Shown here: positions 13,293 to 40,438 of the stretch, in pieces | How the letters are laid out: every line of letters starts with the position of its first letter | Position numbering within the stretch: the first letter of the stretch is position 1 | DNA from: Plasmodium relictum | Lineage: Eukaryota; Apicomplexa; Aconoidasida; Haemosporida; Plasmodiidae | Length of the DNA stretch: 64,000 nucleotides | NCBI RefSeq assembly: GCF_900005765.1 | Contig: NC_041687.1 | Span: 1,426,001-1,490,000, forward strand | Direction: 5' to 3' | Notes under the pieces: model-generated | Told to the model about the DNA's origin: nothing | What the model saw: only the letters and a program-made list of their open reading frames with translations | Database searches by the model: none | Made by a program: the position numbers and the translations under genes

Positions 13293-16200
13293 ATGAAAAA
13301 AATAAAGTGCTATGGACGATTTTTACCAGAACAAGAATTTGATAAATATAGAAAAGAAGAGAAATATTATATAAAAAAAGAAAAAGTCTTAACAAAAGTT
13401 TATAACGAAAATAAATCAAATTTAAAAATTTATAATGACATATTTAAGGAAAGAATTAAAAATATATCTGATGGAATAAATAACTTACTTGTTGTATTAG
13501 ATAATAATGAAAAAGACTTAAAAATGTTAACATTAGGTAACTATACTTCTTTAGGGATTATACAATATATAATAAATGATTTAGTGTATAATAAGAAAAA
13601 TGATTATAAATATGTTATAAAATTTAGCTATTTTGAGATAATAAAAAATTCTGTGAAAGATCTCTTAAAAAAATATATTTTTATTGAAAATAATATGATT
13701 GATGCTGATAATTGTTCGAGTTATCTACCTAAAAAGTGTGACAAAATATATTCTACAGAAAATAACACATTGAATGTTAGAATTCCCATTCATTTTTTAA
13801 ATAATATCAAAAATGAAAACAAATATAACAAATGTTGGAGTAAAAATATAGTAGAAAACGTTATAAAAAAAGAAACTAATAATATTTTACTTTATGAAAA
13901 TGCTGATAATATCATAAAAGAAAAAAAAATGCAAAAATGCAAAAAACATAGTACCAAAATTAAAAATACACATATATGGGAAGATGATGAAATTAAAAAA
14001 ATATATTTAAATGATAAAAATATAAAGCATATATTTGAATTACTATGCAAAAATAAGAAGAAAAAAGACAGAAGAAGTGTAACTTTTAAAATTTTTGAAT
14101 TTAAAATACAATCAATGAAAAAATATAGCAATGATAATAAAGATATAAAAAATAGTTCTATAATCATAATTGGAGTTAATAACATTAAAAATGTAAATTG
14201 TTTTAAAAAGAATTTTTTATATTACTTTTTTGAATTTTTTTTAAGAATAAAAGAAAATTCTTATAATAAAGAAAAATCTTTTTTTGATACTAAGAAAAAA
14301 GCTATGATAATTAAATATTTAAATAGTCTAATAAAATTAAATAATTGTTCTGGATCTTTAAATATCTTAAATTCTTTTTCTTTTGAATTAAACTTCTTAT
14401 ATATATCGAATAATTTTTATAAATATAGAAATATAAATAAATTTATTTATGTCTATTTAAAAGATTTAAATGAATCGGAATACTTTTTAAAACCAAATAC
14501 AATAATGTATTTAGATAGTGAATTCTATAAAATAACGGAAACTATATATATGTTTAAATGTTTATTAAATTATTACGATGAGTTCAAATCATCAAATAAA
14601 GAAATTTATATAAAATATTTAAATCTTGTGAATTATTTAATAAATTTAGAGTCATCAATTATTAATATTCAAAATAAAGAAACATATTATTCTATAGAAA
14701 ATAATATCAATCACATTTTAAATATATACTATAATACCTCTGAAACAAATGAATGTGTTAATATAAAAAGAAGTTCTTCAATTAATATGAGAAACAGCAT
14801 TGTTCTTGATAAAGAAATAAGAAATATAAATATAAATAAAAAGAATGATGATAAAAAATCACATAATAATAAATTTAAAAAACAGAATACTAAATATTTA
14901 GGGAAAATCTACGAAGATGATCAAAAAATTGAAATCCCTAAAGCTTTAGATAATTCTATACCAAAAGAAAATTCTGAGAAATATAAAATACATATAAATT
15001 TAAAAAATAATAAATATGAAATATTTGATAATGATAACAATAAAAATAATAATCTAGAAAAAGAAAAAATTAATTTAAAAATGAAATTTTGTAAAAATAA
15101 TAGAGTTAATGAAACATTTTTCAATGATCTAACATGCGAAAATAATAAAATTAAAAAAAAAAAATTGATAAAAAAAAAAAATTTCTTAGAAAATGATATG
15201 AAAAATAATGATTCTTATATAAATAATCTCAAAAACATGAAAATGAATTTGTTAGAAACAACTCCTAATGGAGATAATATAAATGATATGATAAAATATA
15301 AAATGAAAGATGCCTATTCATTTATTAAAAATAATAATTTTATAGACAACAGAAATATGGATTCATTAAAATGTAAACTAAAAATATGTGTTCATAATGA
15401 TATAAATTTAAAAAATGATTTTTTCAATATTGAAGACTATAAAGTAAATTTATATTCTAATAAAAGAGAGTTAAAAGAAAAAAATAAGAAAATAAAAAAT
15501 GTGATATTAAAAAAGAACTTAAATTATAAAAGTATTGATTTAAAAACTAGGAATCTATTCAATAATACTATGAATAACGAAAATTATGATAAATCTATTG
15601 TTATTGGGAAACAAAAAAAGAAAAAATTTCTTTTTAACAATGATCTTGGCATAGTATATTTAGAGGAGTCTATTAGTTCATCAGAAGAAAAAAATAAAAA
15701 AATTATCTTATACAATATTAGGGAAAATAAAAAACTTCTAAAAAAAATATCTTCAGATATTGAAAAAAAAAAAAAAGTAGATAAAAGGGCGAACATTTTA
15801 TTTTCTGAAGTAAATAAATACTTAGGTGAAAGATACGATAAAAAAAATTTAAGTGATGAAAAGCATAAGATATTGTTAAAAGAAAAAGAAAGGAGGGATT
15901 ATCAAAATAAAATTATAAATGAAGAAAAACAAATCAAGAAAGAAGAGAAAAAAAAGAAAAAGAAAAAAAAGAAGGAAAAGAAAGAAAATGAGAAAATAAA
16001 AAAACATTGTAATATAGAAAAAAATATTATAGAAAATAAAAATGGATATAAAAAAGAAAATAGTAATTATCCTTTGAATTTACAAACAAATAATAATTAT
16101 GAAAATAATTTGTTAAGTAAAAAAAAACATAAAATGAATAAAATTTTAAATCCACATGAAAATAATAATAGTATATCACTAGATAAAAAAATTGCATATG

Positions 16201-17495
16201 AAGAAAGCACAAGTTCAAATAGTTATTCATCTAGTTTTATTGCGGATAAAAAAAAAAAAAAAGGAAATCATAATTCAGACAAACGTACACCAAACTTTTA
16301 TGTATTGCTTAATTCAATTGATAAAAATAAAAAATACTCCACGAAAGATTGTTTTAAAGACAAAATTAAATATAATTTTAATAATTCAAATTATAGTACT
16401 AATGACATATTAGAAAAAAAGAATAATGTTGAAGACAAAAAAAAGAAGGAATATTGCAATGAAACATTAAAAAACTTAGACGACAATTTTAAAAGTTCAA
16501 ATAAAGTTTCTACTAAAAGCAAACCCAATAAATCTAATTATAATAATTTTTTTTTTTCAAATTCAGAAATTATAAGTCCAGATGACGAATTTGAAGAAAC
16601 AAATAAAAACAAAGTGTATATAGAAAATGAAGACTTAGTTCATAGATATTATGATAAATACAAAACCATGAATATTACTGATAGATATATTTATAAAAAT
16701 AAAGAATTTCCTATTAATAATCAAGAATGTTTTCAAGTAATAAGCAGTTGTAATAAGGATATAAAAAAGAAAAAGAATTTAAGTAAAAATAACTTAAATG
16801 GGAATATTATAGAAGTGTGTGAAAAACAAATGCATTTGAATAATTCTAATGAAAGTGCATTCTCATTTTCATCAAAAAATATAAATGAATTTTGTATCAA
16901 AAATAATAATTCAAGGAATAATCAAAATATTAACAAAGAAATAGTGGGTAAATTAAATTTATTTAGTTTAAATAGTAAATCATCATCTGAGGAACTAAAA
17001 AAAGAAGACAATAATAATTATGTTGAAGAATTAGAAAAAGAAAAACAGGAAAACAAAAAAGAAAATAATGATATAGATAATGAAATAAATAATTCAAATA
17101 TATCATATCAATCTTCAACGAATTACAATAATAATAGCAATGAAGTTTATGTAAAAGCAATTAACAAAAATATAATACATTATCATAAAAGTATTAAAAA
17201 ATTAATAAAAAATCACATAAAATTACTGAAAAAAAAACATAAGGAAGATACTAAAGATTTAATGCTTTTAAAAAAGATAAAATTTGCAAAAGGTGTTTTA
17301 AATGAATATGCAAATTTATTGAATACTGATTGTAATGATAAAGATCATAAGTTTTTATTACGCCATATTATTATAGACAGTAATAAACAAGGAAAAATTG
17401 GAGAAAAAAACCTATCAAAAATGAATGAAAGTAATGTTAATAATAATAATAATGAAGATAATAATAATAATAATAATAATAGTAATAATGATAAT

Positions 17496-17586
<91 letters not shown>

Positions 17587-20500
17587 GTAGTAATAATAAT
17601 AATAATAGTAGTAATAATAATAATAGTAGTAATAATAATAATAATAGTAGTAATAATAATAGTAGTAATAATAATAATAATAGTAGTAATAATAGTAATA
17701 ATAACAATAATAATAATGTAAAAAATCAATTAAAGGAAGTGTCATTATATGAGTTATCGAATGATAACCATAGTTATTTAATGAAAAAGTTTAATATATT
17801 TAGATATTTAGTAAATGAAAACTCTGAAAAAGGTATAAATAAAAGAGAACATGAAATTAATAAAAAAGAAATAAATAGAAGCAGTAAAAATATAATGATT
17901 AAAAATACAGGAAGTTTAAATGGAGAAGTTAAAGATTATGAAAATAAAATAAAAAATGAAAAAGAAAATTTTATTTTAAATTCAGATAAAATGCACTCAA
18001 ATGGAGGCATGAAAGATAATGGTAATAATAGAAATTATAATAATCCATCCTTAAAAAAAATAAATAATTTTTTTGAAAATATAAAAGAAAATGAAAAATC
18101 TCCCTCAAAATATAATCATTATTCACATTTAGAAAACAAAAATAACAAAAAAATTATTTATGATCCAAATAAGAATTATCACAACGATCATTATAAAAAA
18201 AGTTGCTGTAGTTATATTAATAATCCCCAGAAAATGAACAGTATCTATGATAAAAATTATTACGATAATAAAAACGCAAAAAGCGAATATGAAAATAATT
18301 TATTAAATAAAATATTTTCAGAAAATGAAAATTACGAATCCTTTAAAAATTTAAGTAAAAAAAAAGCATCACTTACTAAAAATGAAAGTTCTAACACCCG
18401 TACTCATTGTTACAGTGAAACTCCTATAACTGATGAATCCTTGGAAATGGGTGAATATATTTCTTCTAAGGAGGCTACTAATTCTGATTTTGAAAATAAA
18501 ATTATTTTAAAAGATAAAGAAAATGTATTTCCTAATGATAACCTTGATAGAAAAAGAAAAGACCCTAAAAAATTAATACATAAAAATAAAAGGCGTAGTT
18601 CACATAACCATTTTTTGGATCCTTATAATAGGATGAATATTTTTTCATATTTTTCCGATGATAAAATAAAGGGCAAAAATAAACAAATTTTATTTGGTAA
18701 ATTCATAGATACTGTAGAAAAAAACAGTATATATAGTATCGAAAAAAAATTGAAAAGGCGTAATCTTATAAATAATATGAAATGTAGAGAATTAGAATTA
18801 AACGAAGATGAAAATAATAAGGATACATTTTATTTTAGAGACCTTGATAAAACTTTTGATTATGAAATTGAGAATTTGTCAAGACACAAAAAGAAAATAA
18901 TTGATGAAATAAAAAATAAGAAAGAGATGCTCAAAAAATCCATAAAAAAGGAGGAAGAAAAACTAATTGAAATTCAACGTAAAAAAGAAAAAATGAATTA
19001 TTTTTTAGTGAATGAATCAAAAAAATATAAAGAACAAAAAGACAAGGCCACAAGAGCTAACTGTATGCTTCTTAAGATACAGTATTTGGAAAAGCAAAAA
19101 AAAAAAAAATTAAAGGAAATTAAATTTGAACTTCAAAAACTAATATGCTTAAAAAAAAATGTGTACACATATTTAATGAAAGAAAATAATTTGAAAGTTA
19201 AAAATTACATAAAAAATAAACGAAACAAAAATTCATCTGACTCATCTTTATGTCATATAAATGAAAATAATAAGGAAAATAAAAATGATTATCATGAGAC
19301 ATACAGTTCCTATTTTAGTGAAATAAATAAAAATTACGAAAAAAAAAAAAGTAAAATTAATAAGACAAATATAGCAAATGAAAATAAACAAGATGATAGT
19401 ATAATAAAAATAAAAGATTATAAAATTGAAAAAGAAGAAAGAAAAAGCAATAAATCTCTTATGGAAGAAGAAAGTGAAGACAACATAGAAAAAAATTTTG
19501 AAAAAAAGTTACGAATGAACAAAAAAAAATATGTACAGTTGTTGCGCGAAAATAATAGAAAAGAAAAAAAAAAAAATGTTGCACAAGATACTACTAATTT
19601 TCCAATGAATATAAATTTAAAAAAAAAATATATTGATAATAATAATAATCTAAATAATGAAAATAATAAAATAAAAAATTCAAGTATTTTTTCAAAATTT
19701 CCTGAAAATATTCAGAAAAATAAAAGAAATAAAAATATTTTGGTTGGTATAGAAAATAAAAGAGATTTGTCATCTACATTTTCTGAAGAAAATTTGAATG
19801 AAGTTGATTTTCATGAAAAAAATTCAGAAAACTTAAGTGTATTTCTTAAAAAAAATTCAAGCAAAAATACATCAAAAGATAGTATCATTAAAAATAATCA
19901 TAAAATAAAAATAAATGACACTGACTTATGTGAAAACCATTTAAAAGAAAAAAATAAAATAAATAATACAAATAAAAAATTTATACGAGTTAATGTGCAA
20001 AAACAATCTTTGGATTCTCTTAAAAATTTTGATGATACAATAAACATTAAAAATAGCACTGAAAATTCTTGTAAATTAAATTCAAGTGAAATAAATAAGA
20101 AAAAAAAAGACAATATATGTAATTTTATATACCACAAAAATAACAACTTGGATGAAAATATTTTTAGATCATACAGTTATTCTAGTTGTGAAAACAACAT
20201 AAAAAATGAAAATAAAGAAAATATAAAATTAACTTACAAAAATAGAAATATATGTAACTTACCTATTAATTCGAATGATTTTATAAATAAATTGACTAAT
20301 TCACAAACTAGTATATATAGCAACAAAAACTTATCTTCTGATAATATATATGAAAAAAAAAAAAATCTGAATAATTTCTCAGATAAATTTTATCATAAAT
20401 CATCAAAAAACAAAAATAGAAAAATACGTAACACGAGTAATAAGAAGAAAAATAAATTAAACATAGATAATTCAAAACTAGAGGTATTATCTACTTCTAA

Positions 20501-22994
20501 TTATTCATATGATAAAAAATTAAATAAATTAGCATTTGAAGAAAATGCTAAAAATACAAAAAAATTTAAAGTAGGATTAGAGATTCGTAAAAAGAAAAAC
20601 AAAAGAAAAGAAAATTCTTTTCATAAAAACTCAATAAATAAAATTGGAAATATAAATATTAACATAAAAAAATTAATTAAAAACAAAAAGGAAGAAAATA
20701 ATTTTTCAGATTCCATAAGTTATATAGAAAATAAAGAGAGAGAAAAAAAAAAAAAAAATTTAGGAAAAAGGTTTTTGTCAGAAATACCACATAATGGACT
20801 TCTAAATATCAACATTTCAAATAAAAAAATGAATCCAATAAAAGATAATTATTTACATAGAAAGGATTCTTTTGTTAAAAATAATCAACAAATAAATGTA
20901 CCATTAGAATATTCTTTAAATAACAATCGTCAGAGTTATAATTTAAAACCTGGATATAGGAAAAGGAGCTTTTACCAACCTTCAAATATTTATAATGAAA
21001 ATGTACCAAATTCAAATAATGAATATATGATGTACATAAATAGAAATAATGGAATTATTTTTGATTATAAAAATATAAGTTCTAATGAAAATAAATACTA
21101 CAAAAATAATTATTTTAATCCTAACAATTTAGTACAACATGAAATACCATCTAGAAATAGGAAATGTATTCCTGCAAATAATGAAAATGCAAATATTAAA
21201 AAAATAACTAATAAAAAGAATGAAAATATTGATAAAATTTCAATTAAAACTACTATAAATAGGCCTAAAGGGGCAACCATCCCTTGCATTAATTACGATA
21301 CAAATAAATATAAATTTAAATTAGGATGGTGGAACTTTGGAGAAAAGTCTAAGCTGTTCTCTAAAATCGAAAATTATAAAGAAAATGTAAAAGAAAAATA
21401 CTATAAACATAGAAATGAATGTAAAAACAGATCATTAACCACTACAACAAATAAATATTTTACAAAATTTTTGCCAAACGAATATTTTTATATTCCTGTT
21501 ACAAATAAAAACTATTTTAAAAGTAAAAATTCATTACGCATAAAAAGTAACCCCGTTAGTGATTTTCATAAATTAAATTTAAAACCTATAACAGGATTTA
21601 TGCAATCATATAAAAAAGAAAAAGCAAAAAAAAGTGAACCACGGAAAGCAGTGATAAAATTATCAAAGATACCATATGCTATAAAAGATTATAAATATAT
21701 ATATGAAAACAAAAATAAAAGTAAACAAGGATTAAGCTTAGGAAAAGTAGATGTTATTATTTCAGATGATGAAGGATCTAACTTAAATGATACATCAGGT
21801 TTTTTTGCCACAATATCTAAAAGAAATGACGACGAAGATAAATCTAAAGGTATTTTATTTAAATATAGGAAAAAATTAAATGATAAAATCTCAAATAATG
21901 ATACAAATAAAAGCAAAAGCAGAAAAAAGGGAATTCAGGTGAGATTAAATAACGTCATATGTGATAGAAATAAAGAAAGATACACTATAAATAAATGTGT
22001 AGAATCATCTGAAGAATATGAAAATTCTAATGAAAAATCAGAAACGGAATGGGAGGATAATAATAATTTGAACAAAAAGAAAACTAGAAAAACTGTAGTC
22101 ACAGTAAAAAAATATAAAATATCTTCAGATGGATCAAATTTTTCAAATCAAATAAATAAAAATAATAAAAAAGGAAAATTAAACTATTTAAACAAGAACG
22201 TAAGCAATAAAAATACGGAAGAACCTATAAAAAAATACAAGATTAAACTTAAAACAAAAAAAAAAGAAAAATGTCACAATGAGGAAGCAAATAGTTTTAG
22301 TTCATCATCTTATAAAAAAATTTACAGCAAGAAATATGAAGAATCAAATTATAAATCTAATAATAGTTCATATAGTATATCATCAATAAGTAGTCAAAAT
22401 AAATTAAATGAAAATGAAATTTATGAAAAAGAGTATGCAAAAAAATATTCTAAAAACAATTTTAATGATAATAGCGGTGGAACAAATAATAAAAAAAATA
22501 GTAACGAACAAAGAAACTTTGTTGAACTAAATTATAAAAATGTAAATTTAAACAGAAAAAAAGGTTACTTTGATTATGATAGTGTATATGATGAAAATGA
22601 TTCAAATAGTTACGAAGAAAATAGTTTATATAATGAAAAAAAATACAATAATAATTTAAGGATAAATTATTCGAAAAAAAAATGTGAAAACAACATAAAT
22701 AAAAATTCAAAAAATTATTCAGACGAAGATATTTCAGGAGATTATATGGGTAAAAAATGCTCAAATGCAAGTAGTTCAAGCCAAAACAATTCAAGTGAAA
22801 ATGATAATTATCAAAAAAATGAAAAAGAAAAATGCGATTGTAAATATTCTCATTTTAATAGACATTATAATTTTAATAACAAAAATTATCAAGTACCAAA
22901 TAAAAACATGCAATATCATGATTCACCAGATAACAAGTATTACGGTGATTACATAGAAAAAGAATATGATGAAAACATTTATGAAAATTATTAA
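13293..22994 (+). CDS. Giant protein (3,233 aa) with a degenerate kinesin-motor-like N-terminus
   Basis: Single exon. The ATG at 13293 is preferred because the motor-like fold starts at once: residues 4-12 'IKCYGRFLP' match the opening I-K-V-x-x-R-x-R-P strand of kinesins. Residues 61-82 align without gaps to the G-Y-N-G-T ... G-Q-T-G-S-G-K-T ... G segment, yet the P-loop itself reads D-N-N-E-K-D-L-K (70-77). 'LGIIQYIINDLV' (87-98) and 'KFSYFEIIKNSVKDLL' (110-125) match the conserved G-I-I-P and S-Y-x-E-I-Y-x-x-x-x-D-L-L elements. Weaker counterparts of switch I (near 257-270) and switch II (near 286-298) follow, also without catalytic residues. The rest is low complexity: poly-Asn about 1382-1476, a coiled coil about 1850-1975, and a better-conserved island at about 2672-2815 shared with the next gene. 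ATP hydrolysis is unlikely; a microtubule-linked or scaffold role is inference. Confidence 0.68.
17435..17718 (+). repeat. AAT trinucleotide repeat encoding poly-Asn with Ser-Ser interruptions
   Basis: In-frame AAT repeats inside the giant kinesin-like gene. The first part is nearly pure AAT. From about 17584 the tract becomes a higher-order pattern in which AGTAGT (Ser-Ser) breaks runs of three to five AAT codons about every 15-21 bp, implying expansion by slippage or unequal exchange. Confidence 0.92.
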
Positions 22995-24280
22995 CTAAAA
23001 AATAAAATAGAAAATAGAAGAATAAAATTTAAATTTGTCTAATATTTAAATATGTTTCTTTAAAATATTATTTTTTTCATAGATATAAAAATTAAGTAAA
23101 ATATTAATATGTTGAGTAACATATTTTATATTTTAATAACATGACTTGTTATAATCCTTAATTTTTATCTAAATCTTGTTTAAATGCTAATTTTTAATAA
23201 AAATGATATAAAAAAGATTAAATTAAAAAAATAGTTAATATTTCTGAAAGTTTATAAAATAAAGTTTATATGTACAATATATAAAATGAAGATATTAACA
23301 ATCTATTTATTTAATATATATATATATATATATTTTTAGGTTTATTTGTATATTTGTATCATATCATTATTTTCTTTTTGTTTTCTAAGAGTTCTAATAT
23401 CATTTATTTATTATTATTTTTATTTATTTTATTATATATATATTATTGTGATTACCACAAAATTATTTGAATCAATTACAATTATTGTAAATAAAAGATT
23501 TTAATTTTTGTTTAGTAATATTTTATATATTTATCGTTTGAGTATAATACGAATATTGGATTTAATCTTTTAAAAACATAAAAATAAAGCAAATTATATT
23601 TTCATTAGTATTAAGATGAAATCCAAAAAATTAATGAAAAAATTTAAATATTTAAATTATATGAAATAAACAATATATAAAATTATCTTTAAAATATATT
23701 AATTTTTACCTTTACATTAAATTAATTTCTTAAAGTATACCTTTCACAAATAAAATGTTTACTGTTTTCTAAAATACTTAAAATCTATATGTTCTTAATA
23801 TTTTTAATAAAACAAGAACATTATTATATGATGTTTATTATTTATATAAGAAAAAAAAGTAATATTCTCCATTTTAAAATTAAAAAAAAAGGGTTCACTA
23901 AAATTTAGAATTTTTTTGTTTTTTACATAGTAAAAATATTCCGGTGTAAATTTTATTTATTTTATTTTTAATTTTATTATGTTTATTTTTAATATTTTAT
24001 TACAGCTGGTTAATTTTTATGTGCCTACAATATTATAAAAAAAAAAGTTGCATTATGACTTTAGTTATTCCATATATTTTATTCATAAAAATATTAAAAA
24101 TTTCATTTTTATTATATAATATTAAAAATACTTTAAATTTATTTATATAATATTTATTCTATTTATATTGAATATATAAATTTTTATCTATATTCAACCA
24201 ATTAAAATTAACATAGTGTTATTTTTGTAACAATTTTATTTTTTAAGTGTTTTTTGAAAGGAATAAAATACATATTTACA

Positions 24281-24311
<31 letters not shown>

Positions 24312-25685
24312 TTGTATTATAGTATTTTCTATCTTAATTAATTAAAATTTTTTTTAATTTAGTATTTCATTGTTTAGTAAAAAAATTTTGTATTAAAAAA
24401 AGTAAATATATAGAGAAAAATATTATATGATTAAAAATAATATTAAAAATTAAAAATAAATCATATTATTCAATTTTTTAATATAGAAAATATTATATTT
24501 TAATAAATTTACATCTGTATGTATATATATTTAAAAGGTGTTGTTAATACACAAGAATTAAACTAAAATTAAAGATAACAATAAATCTCTAAGAATCTCA
24601 GAAAAAAGGTAATTGCCTCAATAGAATCACATTCAATTTTATTATAACTACAACTATATGCAATTATTATTAAATAAACTTACTCATTTACACATAAATT
24701 ATACATGGAAATACAAAAAAATAGTAATTTTTTTTGGCTCTTAAAATTTTGTTCTACAACATCACTCTCCATGTAGAATAAATTATTATGCTTAAAGAAC
24801 ACAATAATAAAAAAAATTTTAAATAATTAGAATAAGATATATCCAAAAAAATAACTTAATATTTTATATTCTATAAAAATATATATTTGTTTTTTATTTT
24901 TTTTTTTTTTTAAATAAAAAATTTGTATCATAAAAAGAGCGTGTACTTAAAAAAAAAAAAAAAATTCTATAAATTATTATATTTAAAAAAAAAAGTAAAA
25001 TAAATACACTAATTAGTTATTTAATTCAATTTTAATTAAATATTCCCTACATATATTGATATAATTTTTTTTTAATATTTCCTTTTAATAACTTTTTTTT
25101 TTTTTTTTTTGTTTAAATATAAAGCAAATCCTTTTAATTTTTTTGTCATAATTGTTGTTTTCTTGATATTTATGATTAATTTATTGATAATATATAATAT
25201 TAAGATATAATATTATAAAAAAAAATATGAAAATAATATGTTTCGTTTTTCAAAAATGTTTTATGTTTATAAGTATTTTAAAATGTCTTAATTTGTTCTA
25301 AAAAAGATAGTTAAATTCATGTATTTTTTTTAATTATAAAACAAAATAAATATATTTATTTAATTTTTTTTTTTTTTTGTCTTTTTTTGTAGTTGTTAAA
25401 AATACTAATTATAGTATATGTTGTTTTTAATTTAAAAAAAGAAAAAAAAAATTCTATTGTCAAAAATACTTCATAAATATATATATCATATGTATCTATA
25501 GATACGTTTCGTATTTATGTCTTAAATTATGAAATATAATTTTTTTTTTTTTCTTAGCATAATTATATATTTTTTTTTATTAAATAAAAACCAACAATAA
25601 ATATAAAAAAAAAAAAAAATAGATAAAATATAAAATAATAATAATAAGATATAGAAAATAGATAAAACTAATTTGTTTATTAACA
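22995..25685. other. Intergenic region between two giant plus-strand genes, 2.7 kb
   Basis: Contains the 3' flank of the kinesin-like gene and the promoter of the next giant gene. It is stop-dense in all frames, with long A/T homopolymers. A slightly more complex stretch around 24530-24800 is not recognisable as an RNA gene. Confidence 0.6.
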
Positions 25686-28600
25686 ATGACACAACTAAAA
25701 AAAAAGTTTATTAATTGTGATACCAATGAAAATACATCTTCACTATGTGAAGGGACAACTAATATTTATAATGAGCCAAACAGTGATGAATACAGAAAAT
25801 GTGAACCCGAAAATATAATCACTGAATGCGTTACACCGAAATTTAAAAATATGAATACAAAAAGGGATAAAATACGTATAAAAATACAAAAAGATTGGAA
25901 TTTAGAAAGTCCAAGAAATTTAAGATCAGGAAAAAAAAATAAATCTTTTATTAAAAATATAGTAAAGAAAATGGAAGATATATATAAAAATGGGTTGCAT
26001 AATAAAAAAAAAAATAATAAATTATTATTTGATACTCATTCAATGATTTTTCCAAATGAATATTTAAATGCCGAACCAACTAATAATGTATTATATAGAC
26101 GTAGAACCCCACATGAAACATTACTTCGAAGTGATTTTAATGGTATAAATTTAAAACCGTTTGTTAGGTTTAAGAGTGTTGGAAACTTAGATAATAGAAT
26201 GAAAAATAAAGCAATTATAAAAATTTCTAATATAAATCCATATGGAATATATGAAAATAATAAGGGACTTAATTATTTTAATCCAACAAGTTTGAATACA
26301 TCAAAATATATAAGTAGTAGTAATATGGATACAAATGGAGGATATATGAATAATAGATGCATTTATAATCATATGAATTGTTTGAGTAATAGAATAAATA
26401 GAAAAACGTTGTCAACCAACAGACATGGAACATACATTAAAAGAAATACAATGTATGATCCTTTTTACAGTAATCATATAAAAAATATGAAATATAAGGA
26501 ACTTGGTTTAAATAGTTGCAATTCTTATAATTTCCATGACTTGAAAAAGCACAACAATAACAACAAAACAAATAATAAAATTAACCTAAAAATAAGAAGT
26601 AACGAAGGAAATAAAGAAGAATATTTAGATGATATTTCAGGTGAAATTAATAGTAATAAAATGCCATTGTGTGATCATAATATTAGTTGTTTTAATAAGG
26701 AAAACATAAGCAAAAATAATTTTCCTAATCAAGATAAAAAATTGAGAGCCAAAATATCTATACCTTTAAGTAACTATAGTAATCATATAGAGAAGAATGA
26801 AGAAAATATTTATAATTCAAATTTCAATAATGAAAATATTATAAAAAGGAAACAAGATGTAAATGAAATAAAATTTTGTTATGGAGACAATAGTACAGAT
26901 AACAGCTTCCAGAAAAATCATAACAATTATAGGAACATAAATTATTATAATTCTGATCATCAATACCATAATAAAAATTCTCGTTTAGGTTTAGATAAAA
27001 AAAATTCTCAAATTGCATATAACGAAAATAATATAAGAGTCTGTGATAATTCACTAAGAAATGATATTAATTTAAAATATGCATATAATGATAAAAGTTG
27101 TTTATATAATGAAAAGAATAAAAAAAATAGGAATTCTTCAATTAATCTTAAAAAGAAAGAAAAGAAAATATCAAAAGATAGTATAAAAGAAAATGAGAAC
27201 TTAAACAGTGACGAAGAAAAAAAATTATTAAAAATGTCAGCAACAAATGATAAAATTAACAATAACAGTTTTGATAAATGTGAAAAAGCTTTTAATGAAA
27301 GTCATACAAGGGAATTACATAAAACTTCTTCAAACTCTAGGAAGAATTTAGAAAATGACATTTTTCATATAAATAATAATATAGATAATTGTAAAATTAA
27401 CAAGTCATATGTACAAGTAGAAGATAAAAAAAGTAGCAGGATAAGTAATTTTGATAATAATGATAGTGATAAGAAGATAATTAAGAAAAGTTTTTCAAAT
27501 CAAATAAAATCATCTAATAAAAAAATAATTTTGTATGGCGATATTAATAACCATAGAAATATGAAAAGTGATATAGATTATAGAATAATAAAAGATAAAA
27601 ATTCAAAAGAAGATACTGAAAATTATATGGGAAATAGAAGACGTCTGTATAGTAAAAATTATATCCATAATAATTCTCAAGATTATCCTATTTGTGATCA
27701 TTCAGTAGATAGTAAAGAAAAATATGGAAACTTGAGAACAATGACTATAGTTTCAGATTGTAAAAGATTATGTAAAGAAGAAAAAAATAATAAAGAAAAT
27801 CCTGTAAAAAATAAAAATAATAATTCTAAGAAATATAGTTTTCATAAAAAATCCAAAATTTACGATTCAGAATATCATTTAAATTCAGATGAAACAAATT
27901 CAAATTTGGAAAATTGTAATATTTTAGAATATAATATGAATAATAAATACAAGTTATCTGATACAAATAATAAGATAAATTGTGAAAAAATGCATAAATC
28001 TTCCCAAATTTCGAAAAAAAATAAAAGAAATTATTGTGACTTAAAACAAGTAAAATCAAATAAAGTATATCATAATAGATTATTAGAAATAGAAGATAAA
28101 AAAAATAGAAGTGGAATAAATTCGTACAAGTATGAAAATGGATACAAGAACAGTAATGAAATAATTGACTATAATTCAAGAAAAAGTAGAACCAAAAGTT
28201 CATTAAAAAATAAATTAAATAAGGCAATAACTTTGAAAAATAAGGAAAGTAGCAGCAATGAAAGTGATTACAACAACGATTATAACAATCACCCAAATAG
28301 GGAGATAGACGAAAAAAACATATATGCAAAAAAAAATTTTAAAGATAATACTCACTCAATGAAAATAAAAAAAAAAAACAGTAAAAGATCAAAAAGTGAA
28401 AATTTTTATGACTATAAAGCAATTAAAGACAATAATGATTATTATTCAAGTGGTAGCATCAACAGCATTTTTGAAGAAAAAATTGATGGAAGTAGTAATT
28501 GCAGCCATAAGGCAATATCTAATTCATTTGAAAAAAAAAAATCCAATACAAAAAAAGTATCAAACGAATCTCCTTATGGATTCAGTATATATTCCTCAAA

Positions 28601-31600
28601 AAATAGAACAAACACTGTGCATAATTTTAAACATAAAGAAACAGAAAATAAAAGAAACGGTGAAATAATAGATGAAAATAAGAAAAATGGTTATTATTAT
28701 TTAAATAGTATCAAAAAAAGTAAAACTAAATGTTGTTCATGTGATGACTTTATAGAAAAAGAAAAAAATGACATATCATTAGGAAAAATTTCACGAAGAA
28801 AAATTAAAGGTATAAATAACTTAGATTATAGTAGTAGTTCGTCGAAAGGAGAAAGTTTACAATCTTCAGAACTTTCAAATATTTTAACAGATGAAGACTA
28901 CGAAGAAATTAAAAAATCAAAAACTAAAATTCCAAACAGTAAAAGTAATAAAATAAAGTTGTCTACACTCTCAAATAAATCACAAAGTATATCTAACATT
29001 AACAATATTGAAGTACAACATAGTCTCTGTCCTGAGAAAAATTCCAAAATAAATAAAAAAAAATCATCAGTTAATTCAAAAAGAAGCTATATAACAAACA
29101 ATAAAGATAGTAGTTCTCATTACTATTCAAAAATAGGTAAAATGAATTCTAAATATAGCCATTATTCAACAAATAAATGTTTAAGGAAGAATAATGAAAA
29201 AAATAATAGAGAATCAAGTTATAATTCTGAAATCAATACTAATTTTAATAATGATTTTGAAATAAAGTCACAAAATCGTAAAGTTTTTAAAAATTTATCC
29301 AAACATCATTATCTTAGAAATGAGAGCAAACAAAATATTGTGAAATCTTTAAATAATGAAAATATAATTGGAGAAAATTTAGATGATATGCATAACAATA
29401 TTTGTAAACACTCTATTTTAGGAAGCAAACATTCATCAGAAAAAATAATAGAGACTTATTCATTCAATGATAGAAATTCTAGTGCATATTCAAAAAATTC
29501 TAACAAGAACTCTAACAAAGATTATATAAATGATAATATTAGTAATAAATTAAATAGTAATTCTAATTATACCAATACAAATGATAATAAAAGAGCATAT
29601 AATAAGAATATTTATAATAATTCATATGCAAAAGAAAATATTATAAAAGAAAAAGAATTTAACAATAATAGCAGGGATAGTAAAGAGAACAATTACTTTA
29701 CATCTGAACTTGATAATGAAAACAATAGTAGTATAAAATCTAAAGAAAGTATAAATAATAATAACATGTATGTAAATACATATGAAATTTACAAATATAA
29801 CACATTGGATAAAGTAGACAGTTATATAAGCGAAAAATCAAGTTCGAAAGTACCTTATGCATGTAATGATGAAGAGCTTTATAACAGGAAAATTGATTCT
29901 CCAAAATTAAAAATAAAATCAAATGATAAGGATGAGTTTATCAGAAGTAAAAGAACAAACAGTAATGGTATTTATAAAGAAACTCCTTATTTAAAAGGAT
30001 CAAAGAAGTTTTGTGAATTTATGAATAATAGAAAAGAAGATAAAAATATACCCCATGAAAAAATGATTAACAATACAAAAAGGGAATATTCACAGTTAAA
30101 AAATATTGACCAATCATTAGTTTCATTTCCAGAAGACTGTAGTTCACTGAAAAATATTAAAAAGAATTATTTAAATAATGAAGATTATGACAATTGTAGC
30201 AATTATGACAATGACTCGAATGTAGTATTATACAGAGAAAAAAAGAAAATGCATGACTCATTATACAGTGCGCATAATAATAGTGTAAACAAAGATATTT
30301 CTTTTCAAAATAAAAGAAATGAATCTTCAATAAATTTACCATATGAAAAAAATACTATTGAATCGACATATGAAAATAAAAAAAAATACATGAATGTGGA
30401 TAATTTTCTAAAAAAAAGTAATTTTTCAACTGAAGATTTGAATTCCAGAAAATCAAAAAAAAATAGAAGTTACGAAAAAGACATTAATTTGGAATGTACG
30501 GAAAATTTTTCTAATTTCTCGAAGACTAATAGAAATATAATAGAACATAATAAAAGTTATGGGAATAGCTATTACAGTAGTACTAATCTACCACAAAAAA
30601 AAATAACTGGTGAATATAAAGAACAAAAAAGCATTAAATGTAATATATCACCTAATAATATGAATCATAAGAAAAAAAATAATGGAAGTAACTTTTTATA
30701 TAATAGTTCAGAGTATATGAAAACTAGTAATAATGTGTTAAATCTATGTAATCAAGATAATAAACAAAATAATGCAGAAATAACTGAAAACGGTTCTCTA
30801 CTAAATAAAGATAAGATATCAATGATGAACACAAAATCTTCTGAATTGCTTGAAAAGAAAAACAGAAAAAAGGGATATTATACAGTAAGTTCTGAATATT
30901 ATAATAAAAATAATTTAAGTAAAAATTATAAATTAAATTTGAGGGATGAAATAACTGAGTCATTATATGATTGTAATGGAACTAGTGATGATAGAAATTT
31001 GAAAAGAGAATCCAATTATATAAGTCCATCATGTACCTCAAGAAAACAATATGATGAAGAAACATTACAAAAAATAAAAAGAACAATGTCACAAAGGAGT
31101 ATAACAGGTTCAACCAAAAGAGAAAATAGAAAAAAGCAAAATTATTTTAGTACTGATTATAATAATATGGATAATTTAAATAATGATTATAATAATTTGC
31201 AAAAAAATTATAATTGTCATTACAATAATAATGTTAGCGTTAATACAAAAAATGAATCATTACCTGATAATTATTTAAATACATTTAAAAGAAGTAAATC
31301 ATGTAATCTTCGGGAAGACAAAAATAATTATATAAGAAATTATATAGATGAAAATAATAATTCTCTAAATTATTTTCATTCATCAGAAGATCATAGATCA
31401 AATAAAAACTGCGATATTCTTCCAAATAACAATAAAAAGGAAATATATGAATTAAATGATAGGTACAATAATAGCGGATTTTCAAAAAATAATAATGCAA
31501 ATGAAAGTACAAAAAATTATAAAGGCTCATTTAATAGGAGATTTTCTAGTGAAAATTCTAAAAAAAAAAGGAATGAAATTATTAATTGTAAAAGTGACGA

Positions 31601-34600
31601 ATCTCTATACTCAAAAAGTGAATCAGAAAATAATTTCAATTTATTTTATGTAGAAAGACTATCTTATAAAAAGGGTCTCAGTGCTCTATTACCAAAAATT
31701 GTTGATGCACAAAAAAGAAGAAAGCATCAGTGTAACAAAAAAAATCCAGAGAATGATAATGAAAGTAAAATTCAGTCACATAATAGAAATGATCATTCAA
31801 ACAGAAAATATAGAAGTATGGAAAATATTAAAAATGATGATATCAAAAAAAAAAAAATATACGAAGATAATAATGTGAGTATTTCCTCATATATAAGTAA
31901 TGAAAATAAACAAAAGCTAATAAATGCTCATAACATCTCAGATCAAAATGAAAATTCAACCTTTCATGAAAGTATGAAGATGAATAACTTGAGAGAAATA
32001 TATAGAACCAAAATGAATCAAACAATAAATCATTCTAATAATAATATTTCAAAAGATTCAAGAAGTTTACATTTAAAAAAAAATAATAATATTTCTGAAA
32101 GAAACAGTAATTATTCAAAGAATTATATTAATTCTAAGAACACATATAAAACTAGAAATTCAAAGGATAATAATACATTTGAAAATATAAATGAAAATAA
32201 GAATAATTCAAAATATAACATTAGTTTTAATATAGTTGAAGATGATACAAGATCGCAAGTGATATCAAATGAAAATGATAGTAAAATAAATAATAATTTC
32301 AATTCATCACAAATAGAGATTAACAACCAAATAAAAACAAGTATGAATGATTATTTTAATAACCCTATTGAGAGTAATTATAGCTTAAATTCCAAGAAAA
32401 GAGAAGTAAAAAATCCAAGAAGAAAAAATGAAGGATTAAATATTCATGCTTCTAATTCAAATATAAAAAGAATTTCTAATAATGGAGAGTATTTTAATAA
32501 AGAAAATGAAATTTTATCAAAAAGTTTTTATTCCTATATAAAAAAATCTGAAAATAATGATAGTATTAATTTAGATTTAGTAAATACAAATTCTCTAAAT
32601 AAGTCGACAAAAAATTTTAATTCAGAAAAAATTAATTCAAAACAAATAAGCGATAATCATACTGTATATTCTTATAAAAACATTAATAAAGAAGATAATT
32701 TTAAAGAAAGTATTTCATTGAATGATAATATGTTATATGAAATGAAAAGGACAAATAATGAAGAGTCTTTAAATAATAATTCAAGTTCTTATGAAATAGA
32801 AGAGAAAACAACACCTAGTAAAAACTATAGCATATTACCGAATGAAGAAGATAGAGGAATACCTTATATTAGCTCAGATAAAAAAAATTCATTAAAAAGT
32901 GATGTAATTCAAATAGTAGAAAAAGAAAATCCAACTCAAGTAATAAGCTATGAAGAAAATATAAATACAAAAAGCATTTATGAAAGTAATAGAAACAAAG
33001 AGAATAATCCTATAACTCAAACAAAGAGAAAGACAAATGAAAATTTAAATGTATCAGAATTTCCAGAATTATTTAATTTAAATGATTTAAAAATATTAAA
33101 TGATAAAAATTCCACAAAAAACAAAATAAATTCAACAAATCATCATTTATATAGTATGAATAATGATAATAATAAAAGCTCGCATGGAAATTCGCTTAAT
33201 GGTATTGTAGGTATAGTTAAGGCAAATGAATATATGAAAAATCAGTTAAATTATTATCTGGAAAACGATAATGAAATAAATAAAAATTCAAAAACAAATT
33301 CAAAAAAAATAGAGTCAAATATAAATATTAAAAAAAAAACTGACATTTATAATAGTAACATAGAAAATTCTGATATTCCTTCACCTCGTAAAGGCATAAA
33401 TGATTCTAAGGATAATATATTCGATAATATTAATAATGAAAAAAAAAATATAAGCTTTTTATATGAAGAAGGTTCTAAAATATCTACAACTAATTTAAAT
33501 AAGATTAAAAATGAAACTAATAATAGTAAAGTTGTGAATACACCATATTCTTCATTAAATAATAATGAAAGCATAAATTCATATGGTACTTTATATAATT
33601 TAAATAATAATAACACAATTCATTATCAAAATGAGAATAATAGCATTCATAATGAAATTTTTAGTAATATTAAAGTCCCCAGTAATAACGGAAATAGTAC
33701 CTGTAATATGGCCTTTACTCATAATAGTATTCCTATTACTAATAATATTCCTGTTAATAATGGCATTCCTATTACTAATAGTATTCCTGTTAATAATGGC
33801 ATTCCTATTACTAATAGTATTCCTGTTAATAATGGCATTCCTATTACTAATAGTGTTCCTGTTAATAATGGCATTCCTATTACTAGTAGTATTCCTGTTA
33901 ATAATGGCATTCCTATTACTAATAGTGTTCTTGTTAATAATGGCATTCCTATTACCAATAATATTCCTATTAATAATAGTATTCCTATTGCTAATAATAT
34001 TCCTGTTAACACACGTATAGATGTTAACAGCAATGCTCCTAACATTTCATTATGGAATAATGGAATAGATAATTCTTTTTGTTTGAATGGAGGAGGAAAT
34101 ATAATAAAATATGTTCATGCTAATGAAAAAAAAAAGAATAATTTGAATAATTCAGGTATAAACATTTTAAGAAATTATCAATTGAATAAAAATGACAACA
34201 TCACTATTTATGACAACTTAAATAAAAATGAAACCTCATATAATAATCATTTAACTAATAAAACTTATAACAACAATAATCTAATAAATAAAAATATTTT
34301 TAATGGAAATATGATTAATCAAAAGTCAATTATATCTACACCTGCAAGCCATAAAAATTTAAATGATCAACACATGGCTAATTATAATTTAATAAATAAT
34401 AATTGTTTAAGCAGAATGTGTTATGATAATAATGCATTTAGTACAATTAATATAAATAATCAAAATTTAAGTAATAATTTAGTTAATCATAATTTGAAAA
34501 ATAATGATATAAATAGTATTTTAGTGAATAGAAATATGAGTTACAACAGTAGTGCTTCTGCAGTTAAAAATAGTTCTAGTTGCAACAACGTACTTAGTGA

Positions 34601-34829
34601 AAATTTATATAAAAATTATTTAGTTCAAAATAATCCAAATAAAAAAAATTCAGTTAATTGTAGTTTCACTAATTTAAATAATAACCAACTACCTAATGGC
34701 AATGTTAATAATCAAAGTTTATGCTACATCAGTAATGGGAAACCAATCATGACTAATATAACTAATATGGATAATCATCATTTAAATAATAATAATTCAA
34801 TGAATAATATAGGTAATTACATTTTATAA
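25686..34829 (+). CDS. Giant low-complexity protein (3,047 aa) sharing a module with its upstream neighbour
   Basis: Single exon from the ATG at 25686. The protein is dominated by N, K, S, D, E and Y and has no membrane segments or known domain. Two islands look conserved. Residues of about 61-198 contain 'IFPNEY', 'SDFNGINLKPFVRF' and 'KAIIKISNINPY', matching a module in the C-terminal part of the preceding giant protein. A second island near 1984-2010 includes 'FYVERLSYKKGLSALLPKI'. Residues 2682-2777 are eight 12-residue repeats built on N-N-G-I-P-I-T-N-S-I-P-V. The frame stops at 34827, but sequence of the same style continues in the same frame to 34982. Function unknown. Confidence 0.75.
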   Translation: MTQLKKKFINCDTNENTSSLCEGTTNIYNEPNSDEYRKCEPENIITECVTPKFKNMNTKRDKIRIKIQKDWNLESPRNLRSGKKNKSFIKNIVKKMEDIYKNGLHNKKKNNKLLFDTHSMIFPNEYLNAEPTNNVLYRRRTPHETLLRSDFNGINLKPFVRFKSVGNLDNRMKNKAIIKISNINPYGIYENNKGLNYFNPTSLNTSKYISSSNMDTNGGYMNNRCIYNHMNCLSNRINRKTLSTNRHGTYIKRNTMYDPFYSNHIKNMKYKELGLNSCNSYNFHDLKKHNNNNKTNNKINLKIRSNEGNKEEYLDDISGEINSNKMPLCDHNISCFNKENISKNNFPNQDKKLRAKISIPLSNYSNHIEKNEENIYNSNFNNENIIKRKQDVNEIKFCYGDNSTDNSFQKNHNNYRNINYYNSDHQYHNKNSRLGLDKKNSQIAYNENNIRVCDNSLRNDINLKYAYNDKSCLYNEKNKKNRNSSINLKKKEKKISKDSIKENENLNSDEEKKLLKMSATNDKINNNSFDKCEKAFNESHTRELHKTSSNSRKNLENDIFHINNNIDNCKINKSYVQVEDKKSSRISNFDNNDSDKKIIKKSFSNQIKSSNKKIILYGDINNHRNMKSDIDYRIIKDKNSKEDTENYMGNRRRLYSKNYIHNNSQDYPICDHSVDSKEKYGNLRTMTIVSDCKRLCKEEKNNKENPVKNKNNNSKKYSFHKKSKIYDSEYHLNSDETNSNLENCNILEYNMNNKYKLSDTNNKINCEKMHKSSQISKKNKRNYCDLKQVKSNKVYHNRLLEIEDKKNRSGINSYKYENGYKNSNEIIDYNSRKSRTKSSLKNKLNKAITLKNKESSSNESDYNNDYNNHPNREIDEKNIYAKKNFKDNTHSMKIKKKNSKRSKSENFYDYKAIKDNNDYYSSGSINSIFEEKIDGSSNCSHKAISNSFEKKKSNTKKVSNESPYGFSIYSSKNRTNTVHNFKHKETENKRNGEIIDENKKNGYYYLNSIKKSKTKCCSCDDFIEKEKNDISLGKISRRKIKGINNLDYSSSSSKGESLQSSELSNILTDEDYEEIKKSKTKIPNSKSNKIKLSTLSNKSQSISNINNIEVQHSLCPEKNSKINKKKSSVNSKRSYITNNKDSSSHYYSKIGKMNSKYSHYSTNKCLRKNNEKNNRESSYNSEINTNFNNDFEIKSQNRKVFKNLSKHHYLRNESKQNIVKSLNNENIIGENLDDMHNNICKHSILGSKHSSEKIIETYSFNDRNSSAYSKNSNKNSNKDYINDNISNKLNSNSNYTNTNDNKRAYNKNIYNNSYAKENIIKEKEFNNNSRDSKENNYFTSELDNENNSSIKSKESINNNNMYVNTYEIYKYNTLDKVDSYISEKSSSKVPYACNDEELYNRKIDSPKLKIKSNDKDEFIRSKRTNSNGIYKETPYLKGSKKFCEFMNNRKEDKNIPHEKMINNTKREYSQLKNIDQSLVSFPEDCSSLKNIKKNYLNNEDYDNCSNYDNDSNVVLYREKKKMHDSLYSAHNNSVNKDISFQNKRNESSINLPYEKNTIESTYENKKKYMNVDNFLKKSNFSTEDLNSRKSKKNRSYEKDINLECTENFSNFSKTNRNIIEHNKSYGNSYYSSTNLPQKKITGEYKEQKSIKCNISPNNMNHKKKNNGSNFLYNSSEYMKTSNNVLNLCNQDNKQNNAEITENGSLLNKDKISMMNTKSSELLEKKNRKKGYYTVSSEYYNKNNLSKNYKLNLRDEITESLYDCNGTSDDRNLKRESNYISPSCTSRKQYDEETLQKIKRTMSQRSITGSTKRENRKKQNYFSTDYNNMDNLNNDYNNLQKNYNCHYNNNVSVNTKNESLPDNYLNTFKRSKSCNLREDKNNYIRNYIDENNNSLNYFHSSEDHRSNKNCDILPNNNKKEIYELNDRYNNSGFSKNNNANESTKNYKGSFNRRFSSENSKKKRNEIINCKSDESLYSKSESENNFNLFYVERLSYKKGLSALLPKIVDAQKRRKHQCNKKNPENDNESKIQSHNRNDHSNRKYRSMENIKNDDIKKKKIYEDNNVSISSYISNENKQKLINAHNISDQNENSTFHESMKMNNLREIYRTKMNQTINHSNNNISKDSRSLHLKKNNNISERNSNYSKNYINSKNTYKTRNSKDNNTFENINENKNNSKYNISFNIVEDDTRSQVISNENDSKINNNFNSSQIEINNQIKTSMNDYFNNPIESNYSLNSKKREVKNPRRKNEGLNIHASNSNIKRISNNGEYFNKENEILSKSFYSYIKKSENNDSINLDLVNTNSLNKSTKNFNSEKINSKQISDNHTVYSYKNINKEDNFKESISLNDNMLYEMKRTNNEESLNNNSSSYEIEEKTTPSKNYSILPNEEDRGIPYISSDKKNSLKSDVIQIVEKENPTQVISYEENINTKSIYESNRNKENNPITQTKRKTNENLNVSEFPELFNLNDLKILNDKNSTKNKINSTNHHLYSMNNDNNKSSHGNSLNGIVGIVKANEYMKNQLNYYLENDNEINKNSKTNSKKIESNINIKKKTDIYNSNIENSDIPSPRKGINDSKDNIFDNINNEKKNISFLYEEGSKISTTNLNKIKNETNNSKVVNTPYSSLNNNESINSYGTLYNLNNNNTIHYQNENNSIHNEIFSNIKVPSNNGNSTCNMAFTHNSIPITNNIPVNNGIPITNSIPVNNGIPITNSIPVNNGIPITNSVPVNNGIPITSSIPVNNGIPITNSVLVNNGIPITNNIPINNSIPIANNIPVNTRIDVNSNAPNISLWNNGIDNSFCLNGGGNIIKYVHANEKKKNNLNNSGINILRNYQLNKNDNITIYDNLNKNETSYNNHLTNKTYNNNNLINKNIFNGNMINQKSIISTPASHKNLNDQHMANYNLINNNCLSRMCYDNNAFSTININNQNLSNNLVNHNLKNNDINSILVNRNMSYNSSASAVKNSSSCNNVLSENLYKNYLVQNNPNKKNSVNCSFTNLNNNQLPNGNVNNQSLCYISNGKPIMTNITNMDNHHLNNNNSMNNIGNYIL
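33729..34016 (+). repeat. 36-bp tandem repeat, eight copies, coding
   Basis: Eight consecutive 36-bp units, each starting ATTCCTATTACTAATAGTAT or a close variant and ending in GTTAATAATGGC in the inner copies. They encode 12-residue units of the form I-P-I-T-N-S-I-P-V-N-N-G. The inner copies are nearly identical; the last two have drifted (ATT for GTT, CACACGT end), the usual gradient of a tandemly expanding array. Confidence 0.95.
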
Positions 34830-37494: not shown

Positions 37495-40438
37495 TTATTT
37501 AGAAATTTGTTTTTGAGTTTTTTTGATAGCATCTTTCCACAATATAGTATAATTTATATTATTTTTAATACAATATAATTTTAATTTCAGTTGAGCTTTT
37601 TTAATGATAAATTCTGATCTTGACTGAATGTTAGGACTCTTAGTGTATTCATAACATAGTACACCAAGACCTATTACCCATGTAGCAATTACTTCTTCAT
37701 CATCTGAAAAAAAATCATAAGCTCTCTTCTTAGTATATAAAGTGAAACACTTATAAGGATCAATTTGGTATTCATTATCGTAAAATTGATTAGATTCTAT
37801 TTTTTTTTTTTCTAGTTTTTTTTTATTCTGTTTTTCTATGAGCCAATACACAGGTCTACTGTTTATACCGAAATCTATTGATATAACATCCTATATGGAA
37901 AATTTAAAAAAAAAATTTTAAATATATAAAAAAATAATATACATATAAAATGATGTATATATATATAATAGTAATTATGTAAAATTATAAAAATATTTAA
38001 GTTATATGTGTAATTTAAACCTTAATGTCTATTAATTTTTTCTTCTTAAATCCTTTTTCTCCTTTAGTATTTTTACTCCATGTAATAAATTTGTTATCAA
38101 CAATTTTCATGTATATTAAAACGGGTTTATGTTTAAAAGTGTAATACTTGCATTTATAAATTAAAGTTCCTGTATTCATTTTTTTTAATTCTCTGATTAC
38201 TGATTTATTATTTAAACGCCCTTGACCATGGGACAATAGTAAAGCTTTGTTCTTGGTATTATTTCTTTGAAGAATTGCTGATGCCAGTTTATTTTTAAAT
38301 TGATCAATTTGGTTTTTAGCTAATTCAATATTGTTGATATTATTTTCGTACATCTTTAGTAATTCATCATCAAATTTATTTTCCATGTCTCTTGTTTGTT
38401 GTTTATACTCACTTTCTCTTTCTTTAACTACATTTATAATTGGATCTATTAAATTACTATCTAATAAAAGAATTATATCTTCATATTTCTTATTATTATT
38501 TCTAAGTTTTTCTTCAATAATTCTAGCATTTTCTTTAAAAAAATTAGAATAATTTAAAATATTTTCGTCATTTAACTTGAAAATTTGTAGAATTTTATTA
38601 ATAATATACTGCAAATTATCTATTTTGGGTAAATAAAAATTATTTATATCACCATATTTATCTTCAGTTTCTTTATATTTAAGTTTTATATTTTCATTTT
38701 CTTCTTGTAGAGAATTATATTTTTCTGCCATTTCATTTAATTCTTTTGATTTTTTTTCTAATTTTTTTTTTAATTCTTCAATTTCACTATTAGCCTTGTC
38801 TAATGAATTTTTTAACATAATGTTTTCTTCCTTTTTTTTACTTAACGTAATTTCTTTTTCTTCAATATCTTTTGTGTATTCGTAAATGTGACCTTGTAAC
38901 TCTTCAACTTTTTTATTAATAATATTCATTTCTTGTATTAATTTTAGATTTTCTTCACTTTTAATTTGCATAATAGCACATAAATTTTCTATTTTGGTTT
39001 GTTTTTCTCTATAAGCTTCAACATAGGAAATACGATGTTCATCTAATTCTTGATACATATTAAATAATTTATTGTATTTAGTTTCTAAGTTTTTTATTAA
39101 CGTTTCATAATGCTGAATTGCTAAATTATCTCTTTGCTTAGAATCCACTAAGGTATATACATTATCATGTAAATCATTCATTTTATCATTTAAAATTTCT
39201 TTTTTCTTTTCCAATAGATTTACTTTTTCTTTTAATAAACTTGCCATTTTTTTTGCTTCTATATGTTTTATTTTATCATTATTAATTTTCTTATTTTCAT
39301 TAATTTCATTATTCGAAAATATTGTTGTGCATGAAGAATTTTCAGTTGAATTTATTAAAGATGTTATAGGTAAAAATGTTTGAATGCTGCCACTAGAAGA
39401 TTTATTGTTATTTTTTTCAATTTTTATATCATTGAGATAATTTATATTTTGGTTTTTTAAGTTAAAAGAATGAATATTATTGTTGTCATTTTTTTTTTTT
39501 CTTGTTAATTTTATTTTTTTTTTATTTTTCAAGTTATTATTTCCCAAATCATCAAACGTAATATCGCTATTTGGATATAATTCTTTCTTCATCTTTTCTT
39601 CGTTTCCCGTAATAAAATTATTTCCTGTTTTATTTTCATTTTTAGGAATTTTATAAAAAGGCTCCCTAATATGTATATCAGACACATTTTTAGTATAATT
39701 ATTTATCTTATTATTATTATTATAACAATTTATATCTTTTTTTAGAGTATTAAAAGAAAAAGTTTTCTGAGTAATATCAGCGGAGCTATCATTGCTAGAA
39801 ATATAATCAAATTCTTTACTAAGAATTTTTTTTTTATCAAAAATATTTTCAGTTAAATACTTTTCATTTTTTGGAATTTCACATTCATTTTCTTTATTTG
39901 AATTATTTATACCTTTTTTATTTTTTTCTAATTTACTATTTAACTTAACATCTCCTCCTTTGTAATTTGAAAGCATAAAATATTGGTCATCTTCTAATGA
40001 TTCATTTAGAGAATCTTTTTCTCTAAAATTTATGTGAACTCTATTTTTATTTTCCATATTTCCTTTTAATCTAATTTTAACTATATCATTACAATTCAAA
40101 TTATTTTCTTTTATTTCATCTTCTTTATCCTCATAATAATTTATTTCATTATCTATTTTTTTTTTTCTGTTATCGCTATTGTTATTCAGCTTGTTATTAT
40201 ATTTATTGTTGTTATAAGATTCATCACTAGAATAATATTTCTCACTTTTATCTTTATCTAATTTATCTGAGCTTAGAAATGAAGAACTATTATTTTTTAA
40301 TTTAATAGACCACTGGATTAATTTTTCTCTCTCTTCTTTTAGTTTTACTAGAGGATCCATTCTATCTTTTGATGTTCTATTAATTTCGCTAATCTCGTTA
40401 TCATCAGATATTTTATAATTTTTTTTCTTCTTCTCCAT
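37495..40438 (-). CDS. Coiled-coil protein with C-terminal PH-like domain, 937 aa
   Basis: Exons 40438-38021 and 37890-37495 on the minus strand, phase 0 (AAG|GTTTAA ... TATAG|GAT). Residues 1-380 are N/K/S-rich low complexity. About 390-760 is a long heptad-type coiled coil rich in K, E, L and I. Residues of about 780-930, spanning the splice, look like a PH-fold: short strands 'TGTLIYKCKYYTF', 'VLIYMKIVDNKFITW', 'CFTLYTKKRAYDFFS', then a helix with W ('DEEVIATWVIGLGVLCYEY') as in the closing PH helix. The exon 2 part alone (131 residues) would look meaningless, so the splice matters. Such an architecture suggests a membrane- or cytoskeleton-linked scaffold. Lipid binding cannot be judged by eye. 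Confidence 0.75.

Follow-up and report, generated by a model that had tools for sequence, protein, structure and literature searches.

Two adjacent genes in a 64,000-nucleotide stretch of the Plasmodium relictum genome (the window: contig NC_041687.1, positions 1,426,001 to 1,490,000, part of a 22.6-Mb, 514-contig assembly) encode giant proteins that, on comparison of their sequences and those of their orthologues, carry diverged copies of one module, to be regarded as a new family. The first giant also starts with a segment that, by sequence, is homologous to the kinesin motor domain, with a score under the curated cut-off, and that is filed as kinesin-derived and not as a kinesin motor. The two genes adjoin in the same orientation in DNA with a G+C content of 15-23% (2-kb steps). 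The first giant (P0001, family A; 3233 residues) is specified by one reading frame at 13293..22994 (+), which is open end to end, the other two forward frames holding 290 and 727 stops; its orthologues P0003-P0007 (2871-3212 residues) keep its N-to-C layout. The second giant (P0002, family B; 3047 residues) is encoded at 25686..34829 (+) and has four orthologues, P0008-P0011.

Related proteins were collected by searches that require shared 5-residue words and work within restricted length ranges, so that an absence from them is weak evidence. With the first giant as query five family A proteins were obtained from 815 scored candidates, and with its 1000-residue C-terminal slice, which reaches shorter proteins, 12 from 944; the second giant retrieved itself and four others, from just four other species, out of 192. 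The module sets thus comprise 18 family A and five family B proteins, 23 in total. No organism-named match from outside Plasmodium was found among the 815, 192 and 944 candidates scored, and two matches (P0021 and P0023) carry no source name.

An initial annotation, made from the sequence of the window alone, had described a module of about 140 residues shared by the C-terminal region of the first giant and the N-terminal region of the second, and the motifs that it quoted do sit where it placed them: FLPNEY, SDFHKLNLKPITGF, KAVIKLSKIPY and IYENK at residues 2726, 2756, 2785 and 2803 of P0001, and IFPNEY, SDFNGINLKPFVRF, KAIIKISNINPY and IYENN at residues 121, 149, 175 and 188 of P0002. Aligned as single sequences, the two segments score 101, above the maximum of 96 found in 2000 shuffles (mean 45.9, standard deviation 8.2), which amounts to modest evidence for a shared module. 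BLASTP of the whole of P0001 against the whole of P0002 returned nothing (best E 41), and the whole-protein alignment falls inside the shuffle range (1101, for a mean of 1047.8 and a maximum of 1157 in 30 shuffles). As the single sequences were only suggestive and BLASTP was empty, orthologues were gathered for a profile comparison, in which the A and B module profiles were built from separate alignments and then compared by hhalign.

The comparison of six A with five B modules gave a probability of 85.5 and an E value of 5.7e-6 over 68 columns, and that of 18 A with five B modules a probability of 93.2 and an E value of 2.9e-7 over 99 columns, so that the pairwise comparison of hidden Markov models, which had been proposed as a check, upholds the match while reducing its extent from the claimed 140 residues to 68-99 columns. 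An earlier run with longer slices was weaker (probability 12.6, P 5.4e-4, 161 columns). When the columns were shuffled, none of 999 usable replicates (1000 tried) reached the score of the first comparison (39.5, shuffled maximum 33.2) and none of 1000 that of the second (47.3, shuffled maximum 24.4), in keeping with the original argument that low complexity alone would not explain the match. Sliding the A module across 58 family B windows gave 41 on the module and 16.7 for the best window not touching it, and the reciprocal scan of 62 family A windows with the B module gave 41.8 and 17.4. Taken together, the profiles provide strong evidence from sequence for homology of the two modules.

Copy A spans residues 2691-2793 (21363..21671, +) and copy B residues 88-183 (25947..26234, +), as defined by the hhalign columns. 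The shared part measures about 70-100 residues, with a core of about 70 (NEY-x5-TN, SDF-x3-NLKP, IKxS) that starts at 21477 in copy A. In the first joint alignment 16 columns are invariant across 11 sequences, namely, in slice numbering, N72, E73, Y74, T80, N81, S99, D100, F101, N105, K107, P108, I131, S134 and P137, with I35 and Y46 upstream; all 23 retain NEY, T and SDF, N and P within NLKP, one I, the final P and the upstream Y, the K of NLKP being replaced by R in rodent and some other parasites and the N that follows T by D in some. A written-out signature fits 21 of the 23 proteins, missing P0002, in which one gap falls short of the length that the pattern demands, and P0023, by one residue. 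The expectation that the matched positions would be conserved among orthologues thus holds for the core columns. It fails for the outer pairs: among the 23 proteins IYEN is confined to P0001 and P0002, and the upstream pair of KYKFKLGWWNF with KIRIKIQKDWNL finds no counterpart in family B ([KR][LI]GWWN in 15 of the 18 A sequences and in none of the five B), the profile alignments stopping short of it.

The module coincides with the best-conserved 60-residue stretch of each family, residues 2717-2776 in family A (0.78 invariant, six rows) and residues 124-183 in family B (0.60 invariant, five rows; runner-up 0.20). P0001 has further conserved islands, without known domain, at residues 361-420 (0.50 invariant) and 1296-1355 (0.38). 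The module is also more basic than about 95-98% of windows of equal size in the same proteins, with 165 of 3088 windows as basic in P0001 and 59 of 2900 in P0002. The DF-x3-NLKP core, written as an exact DNA signature, has two matches in the whole 22.6-Mb assembly, one per giant gene; across the same assembly this signature gives none on the reverse strand, and the reversed control pattern gives none. A candidate third copy on a different contig, at C1:344174-344386 (E 2.7e-5), was rejected as a lysine-rich part of an unrelated 333-codon frame without the SDF/NLKP core. No Pfam or NCBIfam model attains its cut-off over the module, and a Protein Data Bank (PDB) search with the 11-sequence module profile yielded no chain better than E 0.5. 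AlphaFold2 (AF2) predicts a helix ahead of the core, at residues 2687-2713 of the first giant (21351..21431, +), with a predicted local distance difference test score (pLDDT) of 56-66 there and poorer values elsewhere in the model.

At the other end of the first giant, the kinesin-like segment covers residues 16-128 (13338..13676, +), which match positions 28-145 of the Pfam kinesin profile PF00225 with E 7.6e-5 and a score of 22.3 bits, which stays below the curated threshold of 29.3; as a complete kinesin motor domain has about 330 residues, the detectable match is limited to the first third. In a genome-wide scan with PF00225 the first giant ranked 17th of 19 matches (E 1.0e-4), the best of three under the cut-off. 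A family profile of residues 1-490 searched against the PDB found kinesin-1 as the best match (E 6.6e-4), kinesins making up 12 of 14 among the matches listed, and the alignment with kinesin-1 is collinear over about 100 residues. Comparison by hhalign of the head with a profile built from seven kinesins of the same genome gave a probability of 65.8 and E 5.7e-5, with none of 300 shuffles as good.

The catalytic signatures are missing. The position of the P-loop, read from the alignment with the PDB kinesin-1, is occupied by DNNEKDLK (residues 70-77; 13500..13523, +) in place of the GxxxxGKT of kinesins, and GxxxxGK[ST] is absent from the whole protein in all six family A giants, whereas it is present in each of the seven kinesins of this genome examined. 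Similarly, the switch I SSRS and switch II DLAG-type motifs are absent from the first 560 residues of the six giants and both are present in the seven control kinesins. Judged by position, the above-cut-off PF00225 matches in this genome represent about ten gene loci. The accessible part of a P. berghei survey lists nine kinesins, without kinesin gene identifiers (PMC9333250), and an excerpt of a P. falciparum account gives eight and a ninth, highly divergent one (PMC8906236), which may or may not be the first giant.

The first giant, a long chain that begins with such a head and has a highly conserved, basic module towards its opposite end, is best interpreted as a fixed, non-motile cytoskeletal tether, and, as the second giant has the module and no detected head, the module probably binds a partner that both giants share. 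The reading preferred here is that of a shared docking module for a cytoskeletal partner, combined with an ATP-dead kinesin-like head on the first giant, to which a probability of about 0.45 is assigned. The kinesin-derived head would still fold and, by analogy with Vik1, touch microtubules without moving; the module, as a helix followed by an extended strand, would bind this shared partner, for which a scaffold of the subpellicular microtubules or of the pellicle is the most likely candidate; and the second giant, with the module and no detected kinesin head, would act as a second long linker on the same partner. A more far-reaching and rather doubtful version takes the ATP-dead kinesin as a dedicated anchor and proposes that a module of the Plasmodium lineage, duplicated next door, may plug two giant disordered linkers into the same pellicle or apical-microtubule site.

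Known systems offer partial parallels. With the kinesin motor domain (PF00225) the first giant shares the match of residues 16-128, collinear with kinesin-1, and differs from it by the lack of P-loop, switch I and switch II, by a second half that escapes detection and by the score under the cut-off. Vik1 is reported to have a kinesin fold that lacks an ATP site and binds microtubules tightly (PMC3544905). The motor homology domain of Vik1/Cik1 in yeast Kar3Vik1 is a works-like comparison only; in Vik1 it lies at the C-terminus and is paired with the catalytic Kar3 by way of a coiled coil, whereas in the first giant the segment stands at the N-terminus of a long, low-complexity chain. KinesinA of Toxoplasma, at the apical polar ring, is a kinesin-family protein of an apicomplexan apical cytoskeleton (PMC13387612; listed in PMC7951837) and serves as a lead only. 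Alveolins (IMCp) would have in common with the giants the pellicle role proposed for the latter, and the window also contains an IMCp gene; unlike them, neither giant, nor any of the six A and five B members scanned, contains an IMCp match.

Several observations weigh against the docking proposal. Residues 220-490 alone give no kinesin signal (score 12.4, with 173 of 200 shuffles as high), and the whole-protein family A profile finds no kinesin in the PDB, whereas the N-terminal profile does. Only one of six family A members scores by itself against PF00225, under the cut-off, and in the genome scan this model also gives sub-cut-off matches in two of 14 control genomes, both bacterial. The AF2 models of residues 1-490 (pLDDT 32.8) and of the module (pLDDT 44.3) are unusable. 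Furthermore, head and module may be separate proteins in the P. falciparum group and in rodent parasites: in records of P. falciparum NF54, of related ape parasites and of rodent parasites the A module is found in nine separate predicted proteins of 761-836 residues (P0013-P0020 and P0022). The N-termini of such short proteins align inside the giant (P0017 with residues 2466-2655, score 168; P0018 with residues 2519-2645, score 97), and the short forms would be either true gene splits or gene-model effects. The P. vivax protein P0012 (687 residues) has its match inside the giant of P. coatneyi (score 309) and resembles a piece of a simian-type giant.

Among the alternatives, the one that survives best, although unlikely, is that the module serves for self-association or pairing, so that A and B would bind each other through their copies in one complex with no third partner. 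Such a role would suit a core signature found exactly twice in the genome, in neighbouring genes, and a module that is the best-conserved stretch of each giant, but the invariant residues are largely polar and the poor AF2 model predicts no folded core. It is less probable still, and distinctly so, that nucleic acid or chromatin is the target of the module, unrelated to microtubules, and that the kinesin resemblance is a relic. This would agree with the basic composition of the module and with weak matches to the N-terminal, DNA-binding fragment of topoisomerase I (PF02919) in four of 11 members (best E 0.0041); however, the match in the first member reaches 17.1 bits, short of the curated threshold of 25, and the 11-sequence module profile, searched against the PDB up to E 10, retrieved no topoisomerase. 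Kinship with topoisomerase I was thus rejected.

The remaining alternatives concern the origin of the similarity. In a tree of the module, the 18 A and five B copies separate into two clades (support 100/100) with long branches between them. P. coatneyi and P. fragile, the sole other species in which both families were found, carry A and B members with consecutive locus tags (PCOAH_00027450/60 and AK88_00146/147, respectively). The copies trace back to an old duplication, for which a tandem event fits best, and the separation of A and B is placed before the split of the P. relictum lineage from the simian parasites, the neighbourhood having been kept since. Thus, of the proposal of a new domain spread by tandem duplication or exchange, the unlabelled homologous module and the tandem duplication are retained and recent exchange is dropped. 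A recent conversion or exchange event between the two neighbouring genes, which adjacency and common orientation might have favoured, is very improbable because across species A copies cluster with A copies and B copies with B copies, both groups being fully supported and far apart in the tree. That the shared module is a chance outcome of lysine/asparagine-rich composition, as the empty BLASTP and the whole-protein score within the shuffle range could suggest, has a negligible probability and is rejected, within the reach of profile controls, by the column shuffles (0 of 999 and 0 of 1000 as good), by the absence of the signature from 2000 shuffles of each protein and by the sliding scans (58 and 62 windows), which single out the windows overlapping the module.

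Elsewhere in the window, residues 2682-2770 of the second giant (33729-33995) contain eight NNGIPITNSIPV-type copies with a 12-residue step, overlapping a weak Drf_FH1 match. The alveolin gene lies at 53697-55205 (-; IMCp, E 6.6e-26). A protein of 807 residues with a weak, sub-cut-off Rab11-FIP3 match is encoded at 38015-40438 (-) and, by gene order, is perhaps the apical polar ring protein PF3D7_1141300; a DnaJ-domain protein at 59139-63998 (-) is, again by gene order, perhaps PF3D7_1142100. Neighbouring eukaryotic genes need not share function. PF3D7_1142100 is named in those parts of Kelch13-compartment and SPM3-proximity studies that were available, and the P. berghei protein described in a portion of PMC10718435 is presumably PBANKA_0907700 of PMC7951837.

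A look-up by gene identifiers found no publication devoted to either giant gene in the open-licence literature, outside which most subscription papers lie. The P. falciparum identifiers used for the giants are our assumption, derived from P. gaboni PGSY75_1141000 and from gene order. PF3D7_1141100 has a single table mention, for lysine methylation, in the section of PMC5071865 that was accessible, and PF11_0424 and PF11_0420 have single table mentions as well; all three are only putative counterparts of the present genes. In the accessible text of a study of P. falciparum microtubule proteins (PMC12802302) the identifiers brought up neither giant, and in that of a P. berghei apical-ring study (PMC9719560) they matched neither.

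The finding that the same module forms the best-conserved 70-100 residues of two long, low-complexity and unlabelled giants gives a concrete handle on both proteins. The degenerate kinesin-like head would place the first giant on the microtubule cytoskeleton and, if the docking proposal is correct, both modules should bind the same partner.

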